Part shown: positions 687-14,704 of the stretch, piece after piece | Numbering within the stretch: position 1 is the stretch's first letter | How the letters are laid out: every line of letters begins with the position of its first letter | Virus record (IMG/VR): IMGVR_UViG_3300033571_007428 | Coordinates: 1 to 23,149 of that record | DNA from: a virus | DNA: 23,149 bases | Direction: 5' to 3' (one strand) | Program-made: the position numbers and the translations under genes | The notes under the pieces: model-generated | Databases searched by the model: none | The model's input: the letters and a program-made list of their open reading frames with translations, nothing else | Told to the model about the DNA's origin: nothing

Positions 687-2069
687 TTAGATGTCAATTG
701 TTTCTATAAACCCATCTATACCATCACTATCACCAAAATCTTCATCTTCAGGTCCTTTTGTATGTCTTTTTGTAACAGAAAATCCTTCCCAAAAGTCTTC
801 TTCTTCTATTACATCTAATTTAATCTCAGGTTCTTTTTCTACTTTCACATCTAATACTTCATTTATGTCTATAAAATCACCTTCTAATGCCATTTTCCAG
901 TTTCTTTTAACTGTTGCTATACTTAAGTTTGTTATTTGACATACTTTCTTCTGTGTAGGTTCTTCATTACTTTTCCATAATAGGTTTCTTGCATCAATTA
1001 TCTGTTGAATTGTTTTATTTCTCTGCTCTGTATTTCTTACTTTTGCTCCCATACTTTGTTTTTCTTTTTTTGTTAAATTACTTTTTTCATTAAAGTGTAT
1101 CCTCTTTATTCTCGGTTTAATTCTAATCTCTCCTGTAGTCTCTATTTCGTTACATAACCAATTTACAAGTTGTTTTAGTCTAAATAAATTCATAGGTGGT
1201 TGTGCTGATGTATTTAGGTAGTATAAATATGAATAAACTTCATTTCTTGTAATTGATGAATTGATATAGTAAAGTCCATTTATTATTCTTGTATATAATT
1301 TATGTTTAAAACCATCTTTGATGACTTTTGGTATTAGGATAGAATAGTAATCCATATTTTCTATTATGTAATCACCATTTATATCTTTATCATAAGTGAT
1401 TTGTGTTTTAATGTTTAAATCTTCTTTAGGTAATAATTCTAAGGTATCATCCAGTGTAATATAACCCACTCTTTTATTGTTTGATTTTTTACTTGAACTT
1501 CCTAAATGGTTTAATAGTGATACCTTATCTATACTGAATGATACCTCATTATTAAATATACATCTATTATCACTTGATATATTCATCTTTCTCGATATAC
1601 CACCAGCATACTTATCAATAATAAAACCATTAGAGATTAAAAGTTCTCTTACATAATTATAAACAGAAATAAAGTTGGTATCATCCAGTTGAAAATTGGT
1701 ATCATCTACCTTAATAAGAAAGTTTATTCCTAAACCACCAACACTTCTTTGTAAAAAAGAAATAGGAAAACTACTTACTAATTTATTTATGGTATCATCC
1801 AGCTCATCTTTGGTATCAAACCCATCTATATCATAAAATAGATAGCCAGATAAACCTATTATATCACTACTTTTTAATCCTGATTGAATAGTATGAGGTG
1901 TTATACAATTTAATTGTGATTTTAATTTATTATAGACTGGTCCTTTCTCAACAGACCTTATCTCATCGATAATTGGTTTTTGTGGATTGTTCTTTACAAG
2001 AAGATACAAATCATACAAGCTAATAGTTTCATTTGAGAATTTAGAAACTGATTTCAATTTACTAAACAT
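687..2069 (-). CDS. VirE-N/BT4734-like primase-family replication protein with C-terminal HTH
   Basis: Probable replication initiator of 460 residues. Residues 72-180 match the pattern of the BT4734-like/VirE N-terminal family, common in Bacteroidota and usually regarded as primase-related: GYLFYDIDGF (D80, D82) in the position of the acidic metal-binding motif, SVGGLGINFLIKV (109-121) in the glycine-rich motif, and IDKYAGGISRKMNISSDNR (151-169) in the conserved D...SR...S region. A helix-turn-helix (about 370-393, KKVCQITNLSIATVKRNW) follows, then an acidic C-terminus. No helicase or Walker motif is present, although family members are often fused to a helicase domain. The histidine expected after the glycine-rich motif is not obvious, so catalysis is uncertain. 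Upstream is an inverted-repeat region and inside the gene are repeated 12-mers, suggesting an initiator next to its origin. The start ATG at 2069 follows an AT element. Confidence 0.65.
   Translation of the reverse strand: MFSKLKSVSKFSNETISLYDLYLLVKNNPQKPIIDEIRSVEKGPVYNKLKSQLNCITPHTIQSGLKSSDIIGLSGYLFYDIDGFDTKDELDDTINKLVSSFPISFLQRSVGGLGINFLIKVDDTNFQLDDTNFISVYNYVRELLISNGFIIDKYAGGISRKMNISSDNRCIFNNEVSFSIDKVSLLNHLGSSSKKSNNKRVGYITLDDTLELLPKEDLNIKTQITYDKDINGDYIIENMDYYSILIPKVIKDGFKHKLYTRIINGLYYINSSITRNEVYSYLYYLNTSAQPPMNLFRLKQLVNWLCNEIETTGEIRIKPRIKRIHFNEKSNLTKKEKQSMGAKVRNTEQRNKTIQQIIDARNLLWKSNEEPTQKKVCQITNLSIATVKRNWKMALEGDFIDINEVLDVKVEKEPEIKLDVIEEEDFWEGFSVTKRHTKGPEDEDFGDSDGIDGFIETIDI
1443..1818. repeat. 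Iteron-like 12-mer repeats inside the primase-like gene
   Basis: GGTATCATCCAG occurs exactly at 1443-1454, 1677-1688 and 1791-1802. GGTATCATCTAC is at 1698-1709 and a shorter GGTATCA at 1812-1818. Two pairs (1677/1698 and 1791/1812) each have a start-to-start distance of 21 bp, about two helical turns. All copies are in frame and encode (L/V)DDT or DT, so protein-level repetition is an alternative explanation. Several replicons keep initiator binding sites inside the initiator gene (phage lambda O is the standard case). Confidence 0.45.
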
Positions 2070-2081
2070 ACTTTTTTATCT

Positions 2082-2098
2082 GGCTTTATATAATAGAC
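2082..2098 (-). promoter_or_regulatory. AT element upstream of primase-like gene
   Basis: On the minus strand this reads CTATTATATAAAGCC, a variant of the recurring ATATTTATATAAAAAG element, ending 13 bases before the ATG at 2069. It overlaps one arm of the inverted repeat 2092-2119, which could serve as an operator. Confidence 0.3.
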
Positions 2099-2119
2099 CT
2101 ATTACCACTTTAGTCTATT
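2092..2119. repeat. Inverted repeat upstream of primase-like gene
   Basis: AATAGAC (2092-2098) and GTCTATT (2113-2119) form perfect 7-bp arms around a 14-base spacer. It overlaps an AT element in front of the primase-like gene, so it could be an operator or part of an origin. No T-run follows on either strand, so it is not a terminator. Confidence 0.5.
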
Positions 2120-2142
2120 ATTCGTCTTTGGCCTTTATTTAG

Positions 2143-2184
2143 ACTGGTGGCCAGCCCTGGGGTAATTAATCCCAGGACACCAGT
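2143..2184. repeat. GC-rich two-part hairpin, candidate origin or structured element
   Basis: Outer arms ACTGGTG (2143-2149) and CACCAGT (2178-2184) enclose inner arms CCTGGG (2156-2161) and CCCAGG (2171-2176). The loop is AT-rich (GTAATTAAT in part). CTGG/CCAG units occur five times, allowing other pairings such as CTGGTGGCCAG. This is a sharp GC-rich island in very AT-rich DNA, lies between two minus-strand genes, and has no T-run on either side. Candidate origin, packaging site or structured RNA. Confidence 0.6.
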
Positions 2185-2203
2185 GTAAGTTTAACTAACT
2201 TAC
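2185..2203. repeat. Short perfect hairpin next to the zinc-finger gene stop
   Basis: GTAAGTT (2185-2191) and AACTTAC (2197-2203) pair perfectly around a 5-base loop (TAACT). It directly abuts the larger hairpin 2143-2184 and lies three bases past the stop of the zinc-finger gene on the minus strand. No T-run follows. Confidence 0.55.
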
Positions 2204-2206
2204 AAA

Positions 2207-2407
2207 TTATATCAAATCTTTAATCATTTGTTTCATTGCCTTAATCAATTCTACCTTCTCCATTTCAACTGCCTTCCATTTCTCTATTTTAGCCTTATGT
2301 CTTCTTCTATAAATCTTTTCTGCTGCCTTACAATTAGGACAACAGAACTTGGCATCTTTTCTTCTACCAATAATTTCATTTTCACAATTTCTGTAAGTGC
2401 AATTCAT
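2207..2407 (-). CDS. Small zinc-finger protein
   Basis: Protein of 66 residues with a metal-binding pattern C3-x4-C8, then C22, C23 and C26 (KFCCPNC), followed by a Lys/Arg-rich helix (KIYRRRHKAKIEKWK) and a helical C-terminus. Small proteins of the form 'C..C....RRKDAKFC...C' are common in Bacteroidota phages and mobile elements and are probably nucleic-acid binding, but their function is not established. It precedes the primase-like gene on the same strand, separated by the hairpin region. The similar motif of the plus-strand protein at 5087-5584 suggests a shared fold. Start is the ATG at 2407. Confidence 0.65.
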   Translation of the reverse strand: MNCTYRNCENEIIGRRKDAKFCCPNCKAAEKIYRRRHKAKIEKWKAVEMEKVELIKAMKQMIKDLI

Positions 2408-2513
2408 AAGTTATATATTAAAAGGGTAACACTCCCTCTATCATTTTATTAAAAAAAATAAAAATGTTTCCCCTTTACAACAAATGGCTTATAAAGAATA
2501 TAATAAATAGGTT
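2408..2513. promoter_or_regulatory. Divergent control region with two AAAAGGG motifs
   Basis: This 106-bp stretch separates the leftward zinc-finger gene from the rightward 54-residue gene, so both promoters should lie here. It holds AAAAGGGTAACA on the plus strand (2420-2431) and TAAAGGGGAAACA on the minus strand (2465-2477), facing each other. TATAAAGAATATAATAAATAGG (2490-2511 region) precedes the plus-strand start. No clear TAnnTTTG Bacteroidota promoter box is seen. Confidence 0.4.
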
Positions 2514-2678
2514 ATGAAAATTATTAGTGATAAGACATCAAGTTCATTTAGAACTGTTATTGTTAGTGAGAAGAGCGATAAGAAAGTTCAGGACTACTTT
2601 TTCAGTAAGTATCCTGGAAAGCGTATCAACATACTAAAAGGAAAGAATGGAAGATTTCAAGTCATTATAAAAGATTAA
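2514..2678 (+). CDS. Small basic protein, 54 residues
   Basis: Open frame from the ATG at 2514 to TAA at 2676-2678. The product starts MKIISDKTSSSFRTVIVSEK and ends NGRFQVIIKD; it is basic, with alternating strand-like segments and a Gly-Lys-rich turn (GKRINILKGKNGR). Function not recognised. Its isolated position between divergent minus-strand genes and the strong intrinsic terminator starting 22 bases after the stop support a real monocistronic unit. The A-rich context before ATG resembles the other plus-strand starts. It could be a small DNA-binding or regulatory protein, but no motif proves this. Confidence 0.65.
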   Translation: MKIISDKTSSSFRTVIVSEKSDKKVQDYFFSKYPGKRINILKGKNGRFQVIIKD

Positions 2679-2699
2679 CCACTAAATCTGCAAAACAAG

Positions 2700-2727
2700 A
2701 AACCCACCAATTTAGGTGGGTTTTTTT
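2700..2727 (+). terminator. Intrinsic terminator after the 54-residue gene
   Basis: AACCCACC (2701-2708) and GGTGGGTT (2715-2722) form an 8-bp stem with a 6-base loop (AATTTA), followed by a run of seven T (2721-2727). On the minus strand it is followed by TTTCTTGTTTT, so it may also act weakly leftward, on the gene ending at 2726. Confidence 0.9.
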
Positions 2728-2887
2728 ATTTGTTATTTTTAATTTTCAAATCAACATAACGAAGCCATTGATGATGACCTAATTCTATTAGGTTTTGTCT
2801 AACTGTATCGATGCCATACTTTTCAATACCAGCCTCAACAACTGCTTTCATAAAAATCATACTGTTTTGTGTTTTGTTAGTTTTCAT
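2726..2887 (-). CDS. Small unknown protein, 53 residues
   Basis: Frame from the ATG at 2887 to TAA at 2726-2728, giving MKTNKTQNSMIFMKAVVEAG... and a basic end (DLKIKNNK). Predicted largely helical (MKAVVEAGIEKYGIDTVRQNLIELGHHQWL). The frame can be extended to a TTG at 2911, adding eight residues; ATG is preferred. The stop overlaps the T-run of the convergent terminator. A leftward terminator lies just upstream (2942-2973), so this gene probably begins a new unit. Function unknown. Confidence 0.5.
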   Translation of the reverse strand: MKTNKTQNSMIFMKAVVEAGIEKYGIDTVRQNLIELGHHQWLRYVDLKIKNNK

Positions 2888-2941
2888 ATCTCTGTGTTTT
2901 TGTATATTCAAATATAAGGACTATTTACTAATCCACCAAAT

Positions 2942-2973
2942 AAAAAACAAAAAAACCCAGAAAAAATCTGGGT
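2942..2973 (-). terminator. Leftward intrinsic terminator isolating the replication cluster
   Basis: Read on the minus strand: ACCCAG, loop ATTTTTT, CTGGGT, then a T-rich run (TTTTTTTGTTTTTT). On the plus strand the stem is followed only by CTTTAAT, so the leftward direction is favoured. No minus-strand gene ends near it; the nearest gene to its right is on the plus strand. It may stop leftward transcription coming from the structural operon through the plus-strand cassette. Confidence 0.65.
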
Positions 2974-3118
2974 CTTTAATGAGCAAAGATAGAACAAGAA
3001 ATCTACCATTATAATTTATATTATCTAAATAACCATTTGTTTATTTTTTAATTAAAAAAGGTATAAAAATGAAAAGGGACTTAAACTTATTTTATATATA
3101 TAATAAAAAATTAGGATA

Positions 3119-3838
3119 ATGATTAAAATAGGAAATGATTTAATTGAAAATACTAGATATGTTGCTTATAAAGATGGTAGAGTATGGAGTAATATATCAA
3201 AAAGGTTTTTAAAACCACAATTAATTGGTGGTAATGTAGGTAGTAAATATCATGCTATTAGAATAAAAGATAAGTTTTACTATGTTCATCATATAATATA
3301 TTGGACATTTAAAGGTAGAATAGAACATGAGATTAATCACAAAGATGGTATTAAAACAAATAATAATATTAATAACCTAGAAGATATTACGAGAAAAAAG
3401 AATATAGAACATGCAGTTAAAAAAGGACTTATTAGAAAAGGTAAAAAGATTAAAAGAGTTTGGAAATGGAAATGGGAATGGCATCGTTATACTTGGGATG
3501 GTAAATATGTTTCAACATATGAAGGAAGTAATTTTATTTTAAATGATATAGGTAAGTCACTTACTTATCTTATTAAAATAAGAAATATAAAAACAATGAA
3601 AACTTTACATGCTGTTAGATTTGAAGGTGGTTTTTTTAATGTAGATAAGATAGGAAAAGGAGTTATTAAACAATTTAAAACAAAAAAAGAATTACACGAA
3701 TGGTGCTTAAAAACAGGAATAAGAGTAAAAGGATTTGATACTAAAAATATGAAGATATATCCTGTTAAATTCTTTTGGAATGACTATTTTGTTAAAGGTG
3801 ATAAATTTAAATTCTCTATGAATGATGAAAGAGTATAA
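3119..3838 (+). CDS. HNH endonuclease, homing-type
   Basis: Protein of 239 residues. N-terminal part (YVAYKDGRVWSNISKRFLKP...YHAIRIKDKFYYVHHIIYW) and the core EINHKDGIKTNNNINNLEDI match phage HNH homing endonucleases: H57/H58 as metal or general-base histidines, N73-H74-x-D76 and N86 of the N-N-L-E motif. After the nuclease comes a tryptophan-rich segment (VWKWKWEWHRYTW, 114-126) and a DGKYVSTYEGSNFI stretch resembling NUMOD-type DNA-binding repeats. A second domain occupies 160-239. It is the first gene of the plus-strand cassette and very AT-rich. No intron or split gene is seen beside it, so it is a free-standing element in an intergenic position. The start ATG at 3119 overlaps the stop of a 16-codon mini-frame (TAATG). 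Confidence 0.85.
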   Translation: MIKIGNDLIENTRYVAYKDGRVWSNISKRFLKPQLIGGNVGSKYHAIRIKDKFYYVHHIIYWTFKGRIEHEINHKDGIKTNNNINNLEDITRKKNIEHAVKKGLIRKGKKIKRVWKWKWEWHRYTWDGKYVSTYEGSNFILNDIGKSLTYLIKIRNIKTMKTLHAVRFEGGFFNVDKIGKGVIKQFKTKKELHEWCLKTGIRVKGFDTKNMKIYPVKFFWNDYFVKGDKFKFSMNDERV

Positions 3839-10055: not shown

Positions 10056-10282
10056 TACTTATTACCTTCTTTTTTTGTGGTCCAATCAACTATTAGGTCT
10101 GAGAAATCATAGGTTTGTTTCTCCAAAAACTCGTCTGTTAATTCATCCACTCTTTTTAATATAAACAAATTAATTTCCCTATCTGATAAGTTTTTATCTA
10201 ATGTGATTTCCCAGTTTCCTTCATCATAGACAAAAAGTATATTTTGCCAATCTTCACCTTCGCTATTTATAATCCATTGCAT
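10055..10282 (-). CDS. Small acidic protein between two fibre genes
   Basis: Protein of 75 residues, acidic with several Trp (QWIINSEGEDWQ, EGNWEITLDKNL, IVDWTTKKEGNK) and a central helix (SDREINLFILKRVDELTDEFLEK). Both ends are coupled through TAATG overlaps to the large collagen-like fibre gene before it and the beta-rich protein after it. Its small size, acidity and place directly behind a fibre gene suggest a fibre assembly chaperone; this is inference and no family is recognised. Confidence 0.65.
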   Translation of the reverse strand: MQWIINSEGEDWQNILFVYDEGNWEITLDKNLSDREINLFILKRVDELTDEFLEKQTYDFSDLIVDWTTKKEGNK

Positions 10283-13200
10283 TATGATTTAGTTATTTTT
10301 ATAGTTAAAGTAACTCTTGTTACTGTTGAAGCACTATCAACATTAAATGCTATTATATCACCAGCTGTAACTGATGTTGTCCACGTTGAAAGAGACAAAT
10401 CCTGGTTTTTTATAGCTGATGATAAAGTTGGCTTTTCAGAACCAGCAATTGTATCAGCTACTGTTGGTGGGTAATTAGCATAAGTATCTTTCCAAACATC
10501 TATTACACACGAACCTGTTTGGTCAGATAATATAGTCCAACCGGTTATAGTTCCAGAATAAGGTATTTCTACATAACCTTTAACACCAGTTGTGATTGCA
10601 GAACCACCACCATCAATTGTAATACCAAATGAACCAGCAGTTGCACCACTAGCAGGTGTTATAGCAATTAATTTACCACCATTATCAATAGAAACTAAAT
10701 CACCAACATTAGAAGAAAATCCTGATACAATAAGATTATCTGTTGTTATTGATATAGATGTAGCACCCATATTTATATTACTACTAAAAGAAGTATCATC
10801 AACATTTAAATCTATTTGTGGACTATTATCAAATGTAAGCATAGTAGTTGAACCACTTACTAAATTATAAGCAGTATAGCCAAATGAATTTGAATTAGCG
10901 ATTAATTCAGTTTTCTCAAAGCCAGTTGCTTCTATAATGTTTGAAGTTTCGTCTAACTTAAAATATTGAATATTAGATAATAAATTATTTACATCCTGTG
11001 AAATAATTTGAATTTGATTTGGTTGTTGATTAATTTGAGAATATGTAGCACCTGATGATAATGTATCATATGTAGATGTAGAAAAGGCCTCATCAGCCAA
11101 GTTTATATTAGCATTCTCAAAACCTGAATTTTTAGTTATAATTTTTGTTCCATTTAAACCATCAATATAAGTTTGATAAGTATAAGTTGCATCACTCCAA
11201 GATATATCAATTGCACCTACAGCATTATTAATAGAATTTAATAATGTTATATTTCCATCAGTTGTTGAACTTGAAACACCAATTGAAGAAATCTCCATAT
11301 TTGATGTATTAGTTGTATTATATACCTGACTTAAAATTGAACTTTCATTTTGACTTATAATAGAATATGTTATTGATGAAAAATTATTATCACCAGCTTC
11401 ATGATATATAAATGCCTTTCCAGAACCATCAATAAAGTGAGTTGTTTGAGCTGTTTGCTCTATTGTAGTATATTCAGCCTTTGTTAATATGCTGGCATTA
11501 GAACTTTCATCTGTAATATTAATTGAACTAGGTGAAATCTCTATGTTGGCTGTATTAGTTATATCAGTAGAGAATAGTATTAAATTTGTTGGAAAGTTTA
11601 CATTTAAACCACCTTCTTCACTTGTTGTTGAATTTAATGAATTTACCTTAATAAATGGGTCACCTGGTTCATTACTTACTTCAATTCTATTAGTTGTAGT
11701 ATTTGGACTATCAACACTTAATAATGTTGTTTTGTTATTTGATATACCTAATGAGCTTGTAATGTTTGCACTTGATGTAGACACAATATCTATATTAGCA
11801 CCACCATTAGCTGAAAAATTTAATGATGTTTCATTATCACCATCAGTTGAATATAATCTACTACCACCAATAAAATATTCAGGGTCTATTAAAATTTCAT
11901 CATAAGTAGTTGAGCCTGTAATTGAAATTAAAAATGTTTTATTCATAGTATCTTCAACAACATACTCATATGCTCCTGCAGGACCAGTAGCACCAGTTTC
12001 ACCTGATGTTCCTGATGTTCCACTTTCACCTGATGTTCCTGATGTTCCATTTTCACCTGATGTTCCTGATGAACCACTTTGACCTGAAGTCCCGGATGTT
12101 CCACTTTCACCTGATGTTCCTGATGTTCCATTTTCACCTGATGTTCCTGATGAACCACTTTGACCTGAAGTTCCTGAGGTTGAATAAATAACACCTACTG
12201 ATGTAAGCACAAAAGAATAATAGGAAGTTCCTTCTGTATAATAAACTACACTTTTTGAAGAACTATCATTGTTATCTAAATAAAGACGAACTATCATTCT
12301 ATTTGTAGGGTCAATAGTTGTAGTAGGTAATGTTAAATCAACCGTCACCTCAACTGGTGTTGTAGCATCAACCCAGCCAACTAATGAACTACCAGATGTT
12401 AATGTTGTTCCAATTGGTGTTCCAGAACTATCAGCCAATTGTATTTCCACATAAAACTCTATATTATCGTTACTTGCTTGCTTTAATAAGTGAGTATGAA
12501 ATCTTTGAATACCACCAGGTATAACAGCAAATCCAAGTTGAGATGTGATATAATCACTAATCATTACACCTTGTTGGCTACCTGTAAGATTTGTCGTAAC
12601 TGTTTGTTGAGAAGCGGTAGAAGGATTTATTGAAAGAACTTTATATCCACTTACATCTGAGTTTTGGCTTTCATTAAAATAATAAATTTGTCCTGCTGAT
12701 ATACCATTTGCACCTGCTGGACCAGTAGCACCAATTGCACCAGAAGAACCTGATGTTCCTGATGAACCATCTATACCAGATGAACCAGAACTACCAGAAG
12801 AACCTGATGTTCCTGATGAACCGGATATTCCAGATGAACCATTTGCACCAGAAGAACCTGATGTTCCTGATGAACCATTTTGACCAGATGTTCCTGATGA
12901 ACCATTTTGACCAGATGTTCCTGATGTTCCTGATGAACCATTTGAACCAGTAGCACCTGTTGCACCAGCATTAGCGGCTAAATTAATTCTAACCCAAGAG
13001 TTATCATCAACTGCTGTAAATAAATATGAACCACTATAATATAATTGACCTTGATAAGTTCCTGTTATACTATTTGTTCCTGAATATGTTCCACCTTCGC
13101 TCCAATTATTATTATTAGTTAAATAACCAATTACGGTAGAATAAGTTGGTGATAATAAATATGCTTCAAATAAAGTCGCAGATATAGATGTTCCTGATGA

Positions 13201-13890
13201 ACCAGCAGTTCCTGATGAACCACTAGTTCCTGATGAACCACTTGAACCACTGGTTCCTCTTGTTCCTGATGTTCCTGATGTTCCAGATGACCCAGAAGAA
13301 CCACTTGAGCCAGAAGAACCACTTGAGCCAGAAGAACCACTTGTTCCATCTATACCTGATGTGCCATCTATACCAGAAGTTCCACTTGTTCCATTTGTTC
13401 CACTCTCACCAGATGTGCCATTTGTTCCTGATGTGCCATCTATACCAGAAGTTCCACTTGTTCCATTTGCGCCTGTTGCGCCTGTTGCGCCTGTTATACC
13501 GTATACAGATGGACCAGAGCATTCATCATAATAAACATAATCTGTATCTATCTCAGGTGAATAACAATAATCACCTAATACAGTCATTAGACCTATTTCT
13601 AAAACACCACTTGCAGATGCTGTTGTTAAATTATTGTTATAAGGTGTTTCCCAAACTTCATAATCATAAGTTCCAGGATTTACTGTAAATCCACCAGCAA
13701 AACTATTAGTTCCACCTTCTATGAATAAAAATGATTGATAGTTATTAACCGTAGAGATATCACTAGACATCATATATGTTAAATTACCGGTGTCGTTTGA
13801 TGTAAACTTAAACAGGTAGTAAACTGGATTGATAGTAGGGTTAAGAGTAAAATAAACTTTTTTTGTTTCCCCTTTATTAATTAGTATCAT
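10282..13890 (-). CDS. Giant collagen-like tail fibre
   Basis: Protein of 1202 residues. Residues 1-130 are a beta-rich attachment domain (KKVYFTLNPTINPVYYLF, NPGTYDYEVWETPY). Three Gly-X-Y segments follow at about 131-233, 308-397 and 570-638, built from GTS, GSS, GAT, GEN and GES triplets rather than proline-rich ones; they alternate with beta domains (for example 400-565). Residues 640-1090 are Ser/Thr/Asn-rich strands. The last ~110 residues (IDGGGSAITTGVKGYVEIPY, GSCVIDVWKDTYANYPP, AFNVDSASTVTRVTL) are a C-terminal domain found in many phage tail proteins. The design is that of an elongated homotrimer with a distal receptor-binding part. The start lies 14 bases inside the preceding gene. 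Adjacent genes are coupled. Confidence 0.85.
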   Translation of the reverse strand: MILINKGETKKVYFTLNPTINPVYYLFKFTSNDTGNLTYMMSSDISTVNNYQSFLFIEGGTNSFAGGFTVNPGTYDYEVWETPYNNNLTTASASGVLEIGLMTVLGDYCYSPEIDTDYVYYDECSGPSVYGITGATGATGANGTSGTSGIDGTSGTNGTSGESGTNGTSGTSGIDGTSGIDGTSGSSGSSGSSGSSGSSGSSGTSGTSGTRGTSGSSGSSGTSGSSGTAGSSGTSISATLFEAYLLSPTYSTVIGYLTNNNNWSEGGTYSGTNSITGTYQGQLYYSGSYLFTAVDDNSWVRINLAANAGATGATGSNGSSGTSGTSGQNGSSGTSGQNGSSGTSGSSGANGSSGISGSSGTSGSSGSSGSSGIDGSSGTSGSSGAIGATGPAGANGISAGQIYYFNESQNSDVSGYKVLSINPSTASQQTVTTNLTGSQQGVMISDYITSQLGFAVIPGGIQRFHTHLLKQASNDNIEFYVEIQLADSSGTPIGTTLTSGSSLVGWVDATTPVEVTVDLTLPTTTIDPTNRMIVRLYLDNNDSSSKSVVYYTEGTSYYSFVLTSVGVIYSTSGTSGQSGSSGTSGENGTSGTSGESGTSGTSGQSGSSGTSGENGTSGTSGESGTSGTSGETGATGPAGAYEYVVEDTMNKTFLISITGSTTYDEILIDPEYFIGGSRLYSTDGDNETSLNFSANGGANIDIVSTSSANITSSLGISNNKTTLLSVDSPNTTTNRIEVSNEPGDPFIKVNSLNSTTSEEGGLNVNFPTNLILFSTDITNTANIEISPSSINITDESSNASILTKAEYTTIEQTAQTTHFIDGSGKAFIYHEAGDNNFSSITYSIISQNESSILSQVYNTTNTSNMEISSIGVSSSTTDGNITLLNSINNAVGAIDISWSDATYTYQTYIDGLNGTKIITKNSGFENANINLADEAFSTSTYDTLSSGATYSQINQQPNQIQIISQDVNNLLSNIQYFKLDETSNIIEATGFEKTELIANSNSFGYTAYNLVSGSTTMLTFDNSPQIDLNVDDTSFSSNINMGATSISITTDNLIVSGFSSNVGDLVSIDNGGKLIAITPASGATAGSFGITIDGGGSAITTGVKGYVEIPYSGTITGWTILSDQTGSCVIDVWKDTYANYPPTVADTIAGSEKPTLSSAIKNQDLSLSTWTTSVTAGDIIAFNVDSASTVTRVTLTIKITKS
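11975..12183 (-). repeat. Collagen-like segment 3 coding repeat
   Basis: Encodes about residues 570-638 of the fibre: GQSG, GSSG, GENG, GTSG and GESG units. The DNA is a repetitive array of CCTGATGTT/CCTGATGAA-type units on the plus strand. Confidence 0.85.
12011..12172 (-). repeat. 81-bp tandem duplication in the fibre gene
   Basis: Positions 12011-12091 and 12092-12172 are two adjacent copies, 79 of 81 bases identical by direct comparison (differences at 12013/12094 and 12091/12172). Each encodes 27 residues of GQSGSSG, GENGTSG and GESGTSG type. The near identity points to a recent in-frame duplication. Confidence 0.9.
12700..12968 (-). repeat. Collagen-like segment 2 coding repeat
   Basis: Encodes about residues 308-397: GATGATGSNGSSG, GQNG, GSSG, GANG and GIDG triplets, ending in GATGPAGANG. 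The repeat is less regular than in segment 3. Confidence 0.85.
13186..13500 (-). repeat. Collagen-like segment 1 coding repeat
   Basis: Encodes about residues 131-233: starts GITGATGATGANG and continues with GIDG, GTNG, GESG and a run of GSSG units, including a short tandem repeat around 13292-13342. Longest of the three segments. Confidence 0.85.
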
Positions 13891-14080
13891 TATCTTCTTC
13901 TTTATTTATTTTTTCAATAATTATTTCTTTCTCTTTTATTTTTACTTCTTGAAAGAATTTAGTATAACCCATTTTATAATATTTCTCGTAATCTTCTTCT
14001 TTTATATCACCAAAATATATCCTTTCTCCTTTACATGATATAGAATATTCTATGAATTCTTGTTTTAGTTTTAATTTCAT
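13877..14080 (-). CDS. Small charged protein, 67 residues
   Basis: Protein rich in Lys and Glu: strand-like first part (KLKLKQEFIEYSISCKGERIYFG), a helix (KEEDYEKYYKMGYTKFFQEV) and a charged C-terminus (KEKEIIIEKINKEEDNDTN). Such small proteins occur next to tail genes in Bacteroidota phages; no function known. It starts a new transcription unit after the terminator at 14131-14164 and its stop overlaps the fibre gene start by 14 bases. Confidence 0.65.
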   Translation of the reverse strand: MKLKLKQEFIEYSISCKGERIYFGDIKEEDYEKYYKMGYTKFFQEVKIKEKEIIIEKINKEEDNDTN

Positions 14081-14090
14081 ACGGATTTTA

Positions 14091-14109
14091 TTTTTATATA
14101 AATATAAAG
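14091..14109 (-). promoter_or_regulatory. AT element opening the fibre/portal transcription unit
   Basis: On the minus strand: CTTTATATTTATATAAAAA, ending 11 bases before the ATG at 14080. It lies directly downstream of a strong leftward terminator, the best positional argument that this element family includes promoters. Nearly identical to 16603-16621. Confidence 0.45.
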
Positions 14110-14130
14110 TTATTATCTTTTGTCTTTTTT

Positions 14131-14194: not shown

Positions 14195-14704
14195 TTATAC
14201 AATAGCAAAGTCATTAATATCATCAATTCTATAAGCAGGAACTGGCTCTTTACCAGTGAAAGTGATTGTAACACCATTCATATCTCCAAATGCTTTACCT
14301 GTATTCATAGCACCAGCAGTAACTCTAACTCCATTTTGGAAACCTAAAAGCCAATATTGACTTCTTTGGTCTTTAACAATGATAGAAAGATTTGCTTGTG
14401 ATAAGATTAATAATTGATTTCTCAAAGAAGCATCATTCTTATGGAACATTAAGGTTAATTCCTGAGTAAAGAATATAGTTCCATTTTCTGTTGAATAAGC
14501 TCCTGTTTGATTGAAAGTTCCAGTCTCCATTTCTTGCTCAAAAGTATAGTAAGAAACTGTTGAACCTGTAACTCCAACAATATTATTGCTAGCATCAAGA
14601 GTATATGTTTGGTCTGCATCAAAATTTCCGATATAGGCTAAACTGATGCCGCCAATACTATCTCGACACCCAAGTGTGTATCCAGAATTTAATAAACATG
14701 CCAT
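14195..14704 (-). CDS. Probable major tail tube protein
   Basis: Protein of 169 residues. Begins MACLLNSGYTLGCRDSIGGI and continues YIGNFDADQTYTLDA, YYTFEQEMETGTFNQTG, FTQELTLMFHKNDASLRNQL, IIVKDQRSQYWLLG and VTITFTGKEPVPAYR. A two-cysteine start, a beta-rich body and an 'F.GKEP.PA' end are features I associate with a widespread Bacteroidota phage structural protein interpreted as the tail tube subunit. Its place right after the capsid gene, an A-rich leader and a terminator behind it fit a highly expressed virion protein. The tail tube identity is by family resemblance and position, not by a decisive motif. Confidence 0.6.
   Translation of the reverse strand: MACLLNSGYTLGCRDSIGGISLAYIGNFDADQTYTLDASNNIVGVTGSTVSYYTFEQEMETGTFNQTGAYSTENGTIFFTQELTLMFHKNDASLRNQLLILSQANLSIIVKDQRSQYWLLGFQNGVRVTAGAMNTGKAFGDMNGVTITFTGKEPVPAYRIDDINDFAIV

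Follow-up and report, generated by a model that had tools for sequence, protein, structure and literature searches.

Replication of pRN1 depends on a stem-loop, and phage BIP-1 is predicted to have one like it (PMC4234260). The RepB' primase of RSF1010 recognises the hairpins ssiA and ssiB (PMC4434180). BT4734-like proteins are one family within the archaeo-eukaryotic primase (AEP) superfamily (PMC5862659), and we looked into a locus where a gene of this kind is accompanied by hairpins. The locus belongs to a Bacteroidota phage represented by the IMG/VR virus record IMGVR_UViG_3300033571_007428, whose 23,149 bases we refer to as the window. The element is a non-coding spacer of 137 nt (positions 2070 to 2206) directly upstream of a primase-like gene. 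An earlier sequence-only reading had proposed the spacer as a candidate replication origin. We tentatively favor a related reading, in which the spacer would be a cis-acting site tied to the primase gene, a replication start or primase-loading site at the level of DNA.

The spacer forms three hairpins and folds more strongly than shuffled sequences

The spacer is the longest intergenic gap of the genome, by which we mean the 30.8 kb made up of the window and a near-identical second record (G001, IMGVR_UViG_3300032296_001698, 30,840 bases) that covers the window at 99.95% identity. The sequence-only reading had described three inverted repeats between positions 2070 and 2206, and all of their arms were found in place. 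Hairpin A (2090 to 2121) pairs ATAATAGAC at 2090 to 2098 with GTCTATTAT at 2113 to 2121; its stem of 9 bp, two pairs longer than first written, encloses a loop of 14 nt, and on the minus strand 20 nt separate the end of the hairpin from the start codon of the primase gene. Hairpin B (2143 to 2184) is G+C-rich and nested, with ACTGGTG (2143 to 2149) and CACCAGT (2178 to 2184) enclosing CCTGGG (2156 to 2161) and CCCAGG (2171 to 2176), and its internal loops are asymmetric. Hairpin C (2184 to 2204) pairs TGTAAGTT at 2184 to 2191 with AACTTACA at 2197 to 2204 (8 bp, loop of 5 nt) and abuts hairpin B, with base 2184 common to both.

RNA and DNA folding, suggested earlier as a check, gave z values of -4.0 to -4.6 on both strands. 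Folded as RNA, the spacer reached -42.5 kcal/mol on the minus strand (z = -4.6) and -39.4 kcal/mol on the plus strand (z = -4.0), with 0 of 200 shuffles as good in either case; folded as DNA, it gave z values of -4.4 (minus strand) and -4.0 (plus strand). A GC-corrected scan ranked the fold of the spacer first, both for the window and for G001. The G+C content was 36.5% in the spacer and 52% at positions 2139 to 2190, compared with 29.8% in the genome, which confirms the GC-rich patch in AT-rich DNA that had been pointed out. The folding of the spacer is thus real and unusual for this genome. Other strongly folding gaps include 2679 to 2810, which holds a terminator-like hairpin, 14000 to 14113, where a palindrome at 14060 to 14083 has arms of 9, and 14624 to 14688.

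The spacer had no match in Rfam above the gathering threshold, and a tRNA search of it found none. Six-frame translation met stops in every frame, and no intact open reading frame (ORF) was seen.

The neighbouring protein is primase-like

The gene downstream of the spacer (687 to 2069, minus strand) encodes a protein of 460 aa. Its assignment to a primase-type family, proposed from the sequence, was borne out: a six-frame search gave a weak match to PF08800 (BT4734-like_N), with 23.4 bits at a cut-off of 22.4, and hmmscan gave 20.5, under the cut-off. We compared the AEP motifs I (DhD), II (sxH) and III (hD) between the protein and five aligned distant relatives. The acids of motifs I and III (D80, D82 and D152) were invariant across the six sequences. 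Through L164, a full-length but distant relative (E = 4.5e-10), we reached a wider homolog group of stand-alone proteins of about 400 to 520 aa in Bacteroidota genomes, with the nearest full-length relatives sitting in integrated elements; one relative in this group, L202, carries both BT4734_N and PriCT_1 domains. From these comparisons, the protein appears to be a divergent BT4734-like (VirE_N), AEP-type, primase-like protein whose catalytic activity is putative. A single-sequence structure prediction of the protein (pLDDT 36) was too poor to use.

Spacers upstream of homologous primases

Next, we surveyed the DNA upstream of homologous primase genes, with start codons chosen by script and preceding ORFs called mechanically at a minimum of 45 or 60 codons. 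In integrated elements, many of the distant homologs are preceded by a non-coding spacer some 135 to 245 nt long. In the subgroup of L202, the spacer sequence was conserved above shuffled expectation in most members compared (69 to 79% versus 60 to 62%), with 63% versus 61% in L221, and this conservation held whatever the upstream cargo gene. A conserved hairpin lies about 20 nt ahead of the primase start codon in this family and is followed by a T-rich stretch. The hairpin has no Rfam name, and its covariation does not exceed that of shuffles.

We also observed that the integrated elements L201-L204, L207, L212, L217-L229 and L234 share a conserved spacer, about 190 to 215 nt long, in which a hairpin occurs together with a T-rich stretch and a AACAGCCCAAAAATCAACTAAAA block, and that L223 carries a second copy of the L202-family hairpin. 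Within positions 1500 to 2800 of the window, the best match to the L202-family model lies inside the primase gene (1752 to 1793, minus strand, 15.1 bits, E = 0.011). The hairpin at this site is shortened, and the match probably arose by chance, given the AT-rich DNA in which it lies.

Two more distant BT4734_N genes, L145 (z = -6.4) and L168 (z = -5.0), have clear direct and inverted repeats directly upstream, and these are the clearest origin-like cases. The repeats (TTATCGGTTTAA and TGTTCAC) are strong and are located at L145:2023-2159 and L168:1912-1991; those of L168 sit behind an ORF of 327 aa that resembles a RepA-type ATPase.

Searches for relatives of the element

A pattern search for the double stem of hairpin B across 2.9 million viral contigs returned 51 stretches, with the full nested stem only in G001. 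The other pattern matches, nearly all of them from contigs richer in G+C, look like chance. Close copies of the two proteins flanking the spacer were likewise found only in G001 among phages, plasmids, viral contigs and genomes. The element is known from one lineage, with two nearly identical records. The stems are unchanged in G001, which proves little since that record is near-identical.

The primase was not found in known phages, nor in any relative found via the terminase, the terminase small subunit (terS) or the capsid protein. Two capsid-sharing relatives carry weakly related proteins of 325 and 330 aa in its stead (L046:6585-7562 and L050:13612-14604, both on the minus strand). These proteins matched no Pfam family and share a C-terminal LP(I/M)HD(A/S) stretch, which we take to resemble motif C of DNA polymerase A. 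This replacement suggests a swap of the replication module among these phages. The strongest fold of relative G017 resembles a terminator hairpin, and neither in G017 nor in G023 did the spacers ahead of replication-like genes fold significantly. It seems to us quite unlikely that the spacer represents a novel type of start element linked to the primase, or of RNA switch, that is exchanged along with the replication gene between Bacteroidota phages that are otherwise alike.

Weighing a replication start against other explanations

If the spacer is a replication start or primase-loading site, opening of the duplex would allow nested hairpin B, with A and C, to form on the exposed strand; the BT4734-like primase would then bind the hairpin and synthesise a primer next to it, for extension by replication proteins of the host. 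We infer the extrusion, the binding, the priming and the hand-over to the host. The hairpins themselves are present in excess over chance, the neighbour is of primase type and, because the primase gene overlaps terS, the spacer is the only sizeable non-coding gap adjoining that gene. The sequence-only reading stood as far as the hairpins without terminator tails, the GC-rich patch and the primase-type neighbour are concerned.

Several findings weigh against an origin here, and on some of them the earlier proposal did not hold. The cumulative GC skew, which was to locate the origin, has its minimum in this arm near 3034, within a flat stretch between 2500 and 3100; gene direction switches there, 0.8 kb from the spacer, and the minimum is not at 2070. 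There are no iterons: no repeat cluster at 1650 to 2550 stands out compared with the genome, and TAGACTGGT occurs twice only. Phages with a capsid protein 53 to 93% identical lack the primase gene, including those at 90 to 93%, and searches of phages, plasmids, viral contigs and genomes found no divergent homolog of the spacer, only the 99.95% identical G001. Because no such relative was found, the role of the spacer, in replication start or in gene control, is unproven. The histidine of AEP motif II is missing from the 460-aa protein and from all five aligned relatives, and scans with Pfam, PHROGs and NCBIfam found no helicase domain in it; we call the protein primase-like, with catalysis unproven, because D80, D82 and D152 are invariant but the motif II histidine is missing.

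The homologs add to these points. Some have a near-zero spacer (L200, -8 nt; L241, 14 nt; L240, 28 nt), and folding upstream of the homologs is modest (median z = -1.2). The L202-family hairpin is not present in the window, where its covariance model scored at most 7 bits at the hairpins, which is chance level; it is a different element from the hairpins described here. For BT4734_N genes with an upstream gap of at least 60 nt, the upstream 137 nt had a median z of -2.0, compared with -0.7 for control gaps of the same loci (19 versus 56, one-sided P = 0.012), but this enrichment vanished without the 60-nt filter (P = 0.54), and some of the hairpins in the filtered set are terminators or coding. 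It is an after-the-fact lead and no proof. A role as origin is plausible but functionally unproven.

The spacer might instead be a structured RNA leader, an explanation that we consider possible: the zinc-finger and primase genes would be cotranscribed, and the folded spacer RNA before the primase start would tune translation, stability or processing. Both flanking genes are on the minus strand, whose sequence the RNA would have, and this strand has the better fold (-42.5 versus -39.4), but the difference between the two strands is small. Between hairpin A and the start codon, 20 nt further on, lies an unpaired A-rich stretch; the L202 primase family also has its conserved hairpin and T-rich stretch at about this distance, but the covariation in that hairpin was not above shuffles, and the spacer had no Rfam match. 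Flavobacterium johnsoniae is described as tuning translation by mRNA structure without Shine-Dalgarno sequences (PMC6847099). In our analysis, a replication start and an RNA leader appear to explain the same facts about equally well, with the replication start slightly ahead because stem-loops beside AEP primases are required in pRN1, predicted in BIP-1 and recognised by the RSF1010 primase.

Rather doubtful is that these are intergenic hairpins without a replicative or regulatory role, to be put down to RNA processing or decay, to the remnant of an inserted element or to drift. The spacer is an orphan sequence, with no relative found that carries the element, which fits such an explanation; but in a compact genome drift is hard to credit for three stems that have z values of -4 to -4.6 and occupy its longest gap, and the identity of the stems in G001 counts against it too, with little weight.

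A packaging site (pac or cos) used by the terminase, which had been raised on the grounds that terS lies 2 kb away, is very improbable. The start of terS is in fact closer, at 1.4 kb, and a circular order of terS, methyltransferase and terL is plausible from the two records, but the primase gene separates the spacer from terS, and both contigs end elsewhere, at an apparent assembly break in a methyltransferase ORF. That the spacer is a transcription terminator is scarcely credible, as had been argued before. Its stems are strong and other strongly folding gaps of the genome hold terminator-like hairpins, but on both strands the stems lack a T-run behind them, and a terminator scan of 1800 to 3300 flagged other sites only.

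Gene layout and the two records

On the minus strand, the gene order is zinc-finger gene (2407 to 2207), spacer (2206 to 2070), primase-like gene (2069 to 687) and terS (697 to 200). The zinc-finger gene encodes a small putative zinc-binding protein of 66 aa with weak family matches only. The terS gene overlaps the end of the primase gene, and its homologs lie directly before the terminase large subunit (TerL) in other Bacteroidota-type phages. G001 adds 7.7 kb beyond the window, with a partial methyltransferase and TerL, and circular joining would plausibly continue terS into the methyltransferase and TerL, an order deduced from both records. Position 1 of the window corresponds to G001 position 30840, so that both records stop at the same base, and G001 begins inside the methyltransferase ORF; this looks like a shared assembly break and not a genome end. 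The two records differ at about 12,091 to 12,150 of the window, in the repeat-rich part of a collagen-like GTSGTSG gene (10282 to 13890, minus strand), likely through repeat-number variation or misassembly. In L004, a protein near TerL (2270 to 2878, plus strand) matches sigma-70 ECF weakly and under the cut-off (E = 1.2e-5), and the protein is present in the relatives too.

Upstream of the zinc-finger gene, a divergent AT-rich gap (2408 to 2516) is a rival place for an origin or early promoter. It contains an A-tract motif, ATTAAAAAAAATAAAAA followed by T-rich sequence (2445 to 2470, plus strand), also seen in L046 at about 6307 and L050 at about 14694 (both minus strand). The motif occurs once per genome in these three related phages, in each case between genes and ahead of one that is small or replication-like, with 0.1 to 0.4 occurrences expected by chance in each. 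Probably it is either an early promoter element or a competing origin.

Comparison with known systems

Stand-alone BT4734-like primases occur in many Bacteroidota integrated elements, and we know of no mapped origin for them. If the spacer is a start site, it would offer a small, testable example of how these primases choose the place of priming; as an RNA leader, it would add a regulatory element to a phage group that has been little studied. We regard it as a well-documented candidate, short of a result.

Like pRN1 and BIP-1, the phage has a large stem-loop in the non-coding gap next to an AEP-type primase gene, with no need for iterons. Unlike them, it has three separate hairpins, 5' of the gene, whereas the pRN1/BIP-1 type has its stem-loop 3' of the replication gene; and their replication protein has an SF3 helicase and a winged helix, whereas no helicase was found in the 460-aa protein. 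Because these two tested features differ, the position and the helicase, we did not assign the spacer to the pRN1 type. As with ssiA and ssiB of RSF1010, a GC-rich hairpin is a possible primase recognition site. The RSF1010 type is a hairpin carrying GTG on its 3' side and bound by the primase; the spacer has hairpins as well as GTG triplets, although such triplets are too common to count. RSF1010 differs in having iterons and separate RepA and RepC, whereas neither an unwinding helicase nor iterons were identified in the phage. The spacers of the integrated elements L201-L234 share with this one a homologous primase family, the same position and a hairpin located some 20 nt upstream of the start codon. 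Their sequence and structure differ from those of the window, and the T-rich stretch after the hairpin is a feature of the L201-L234 spacers.
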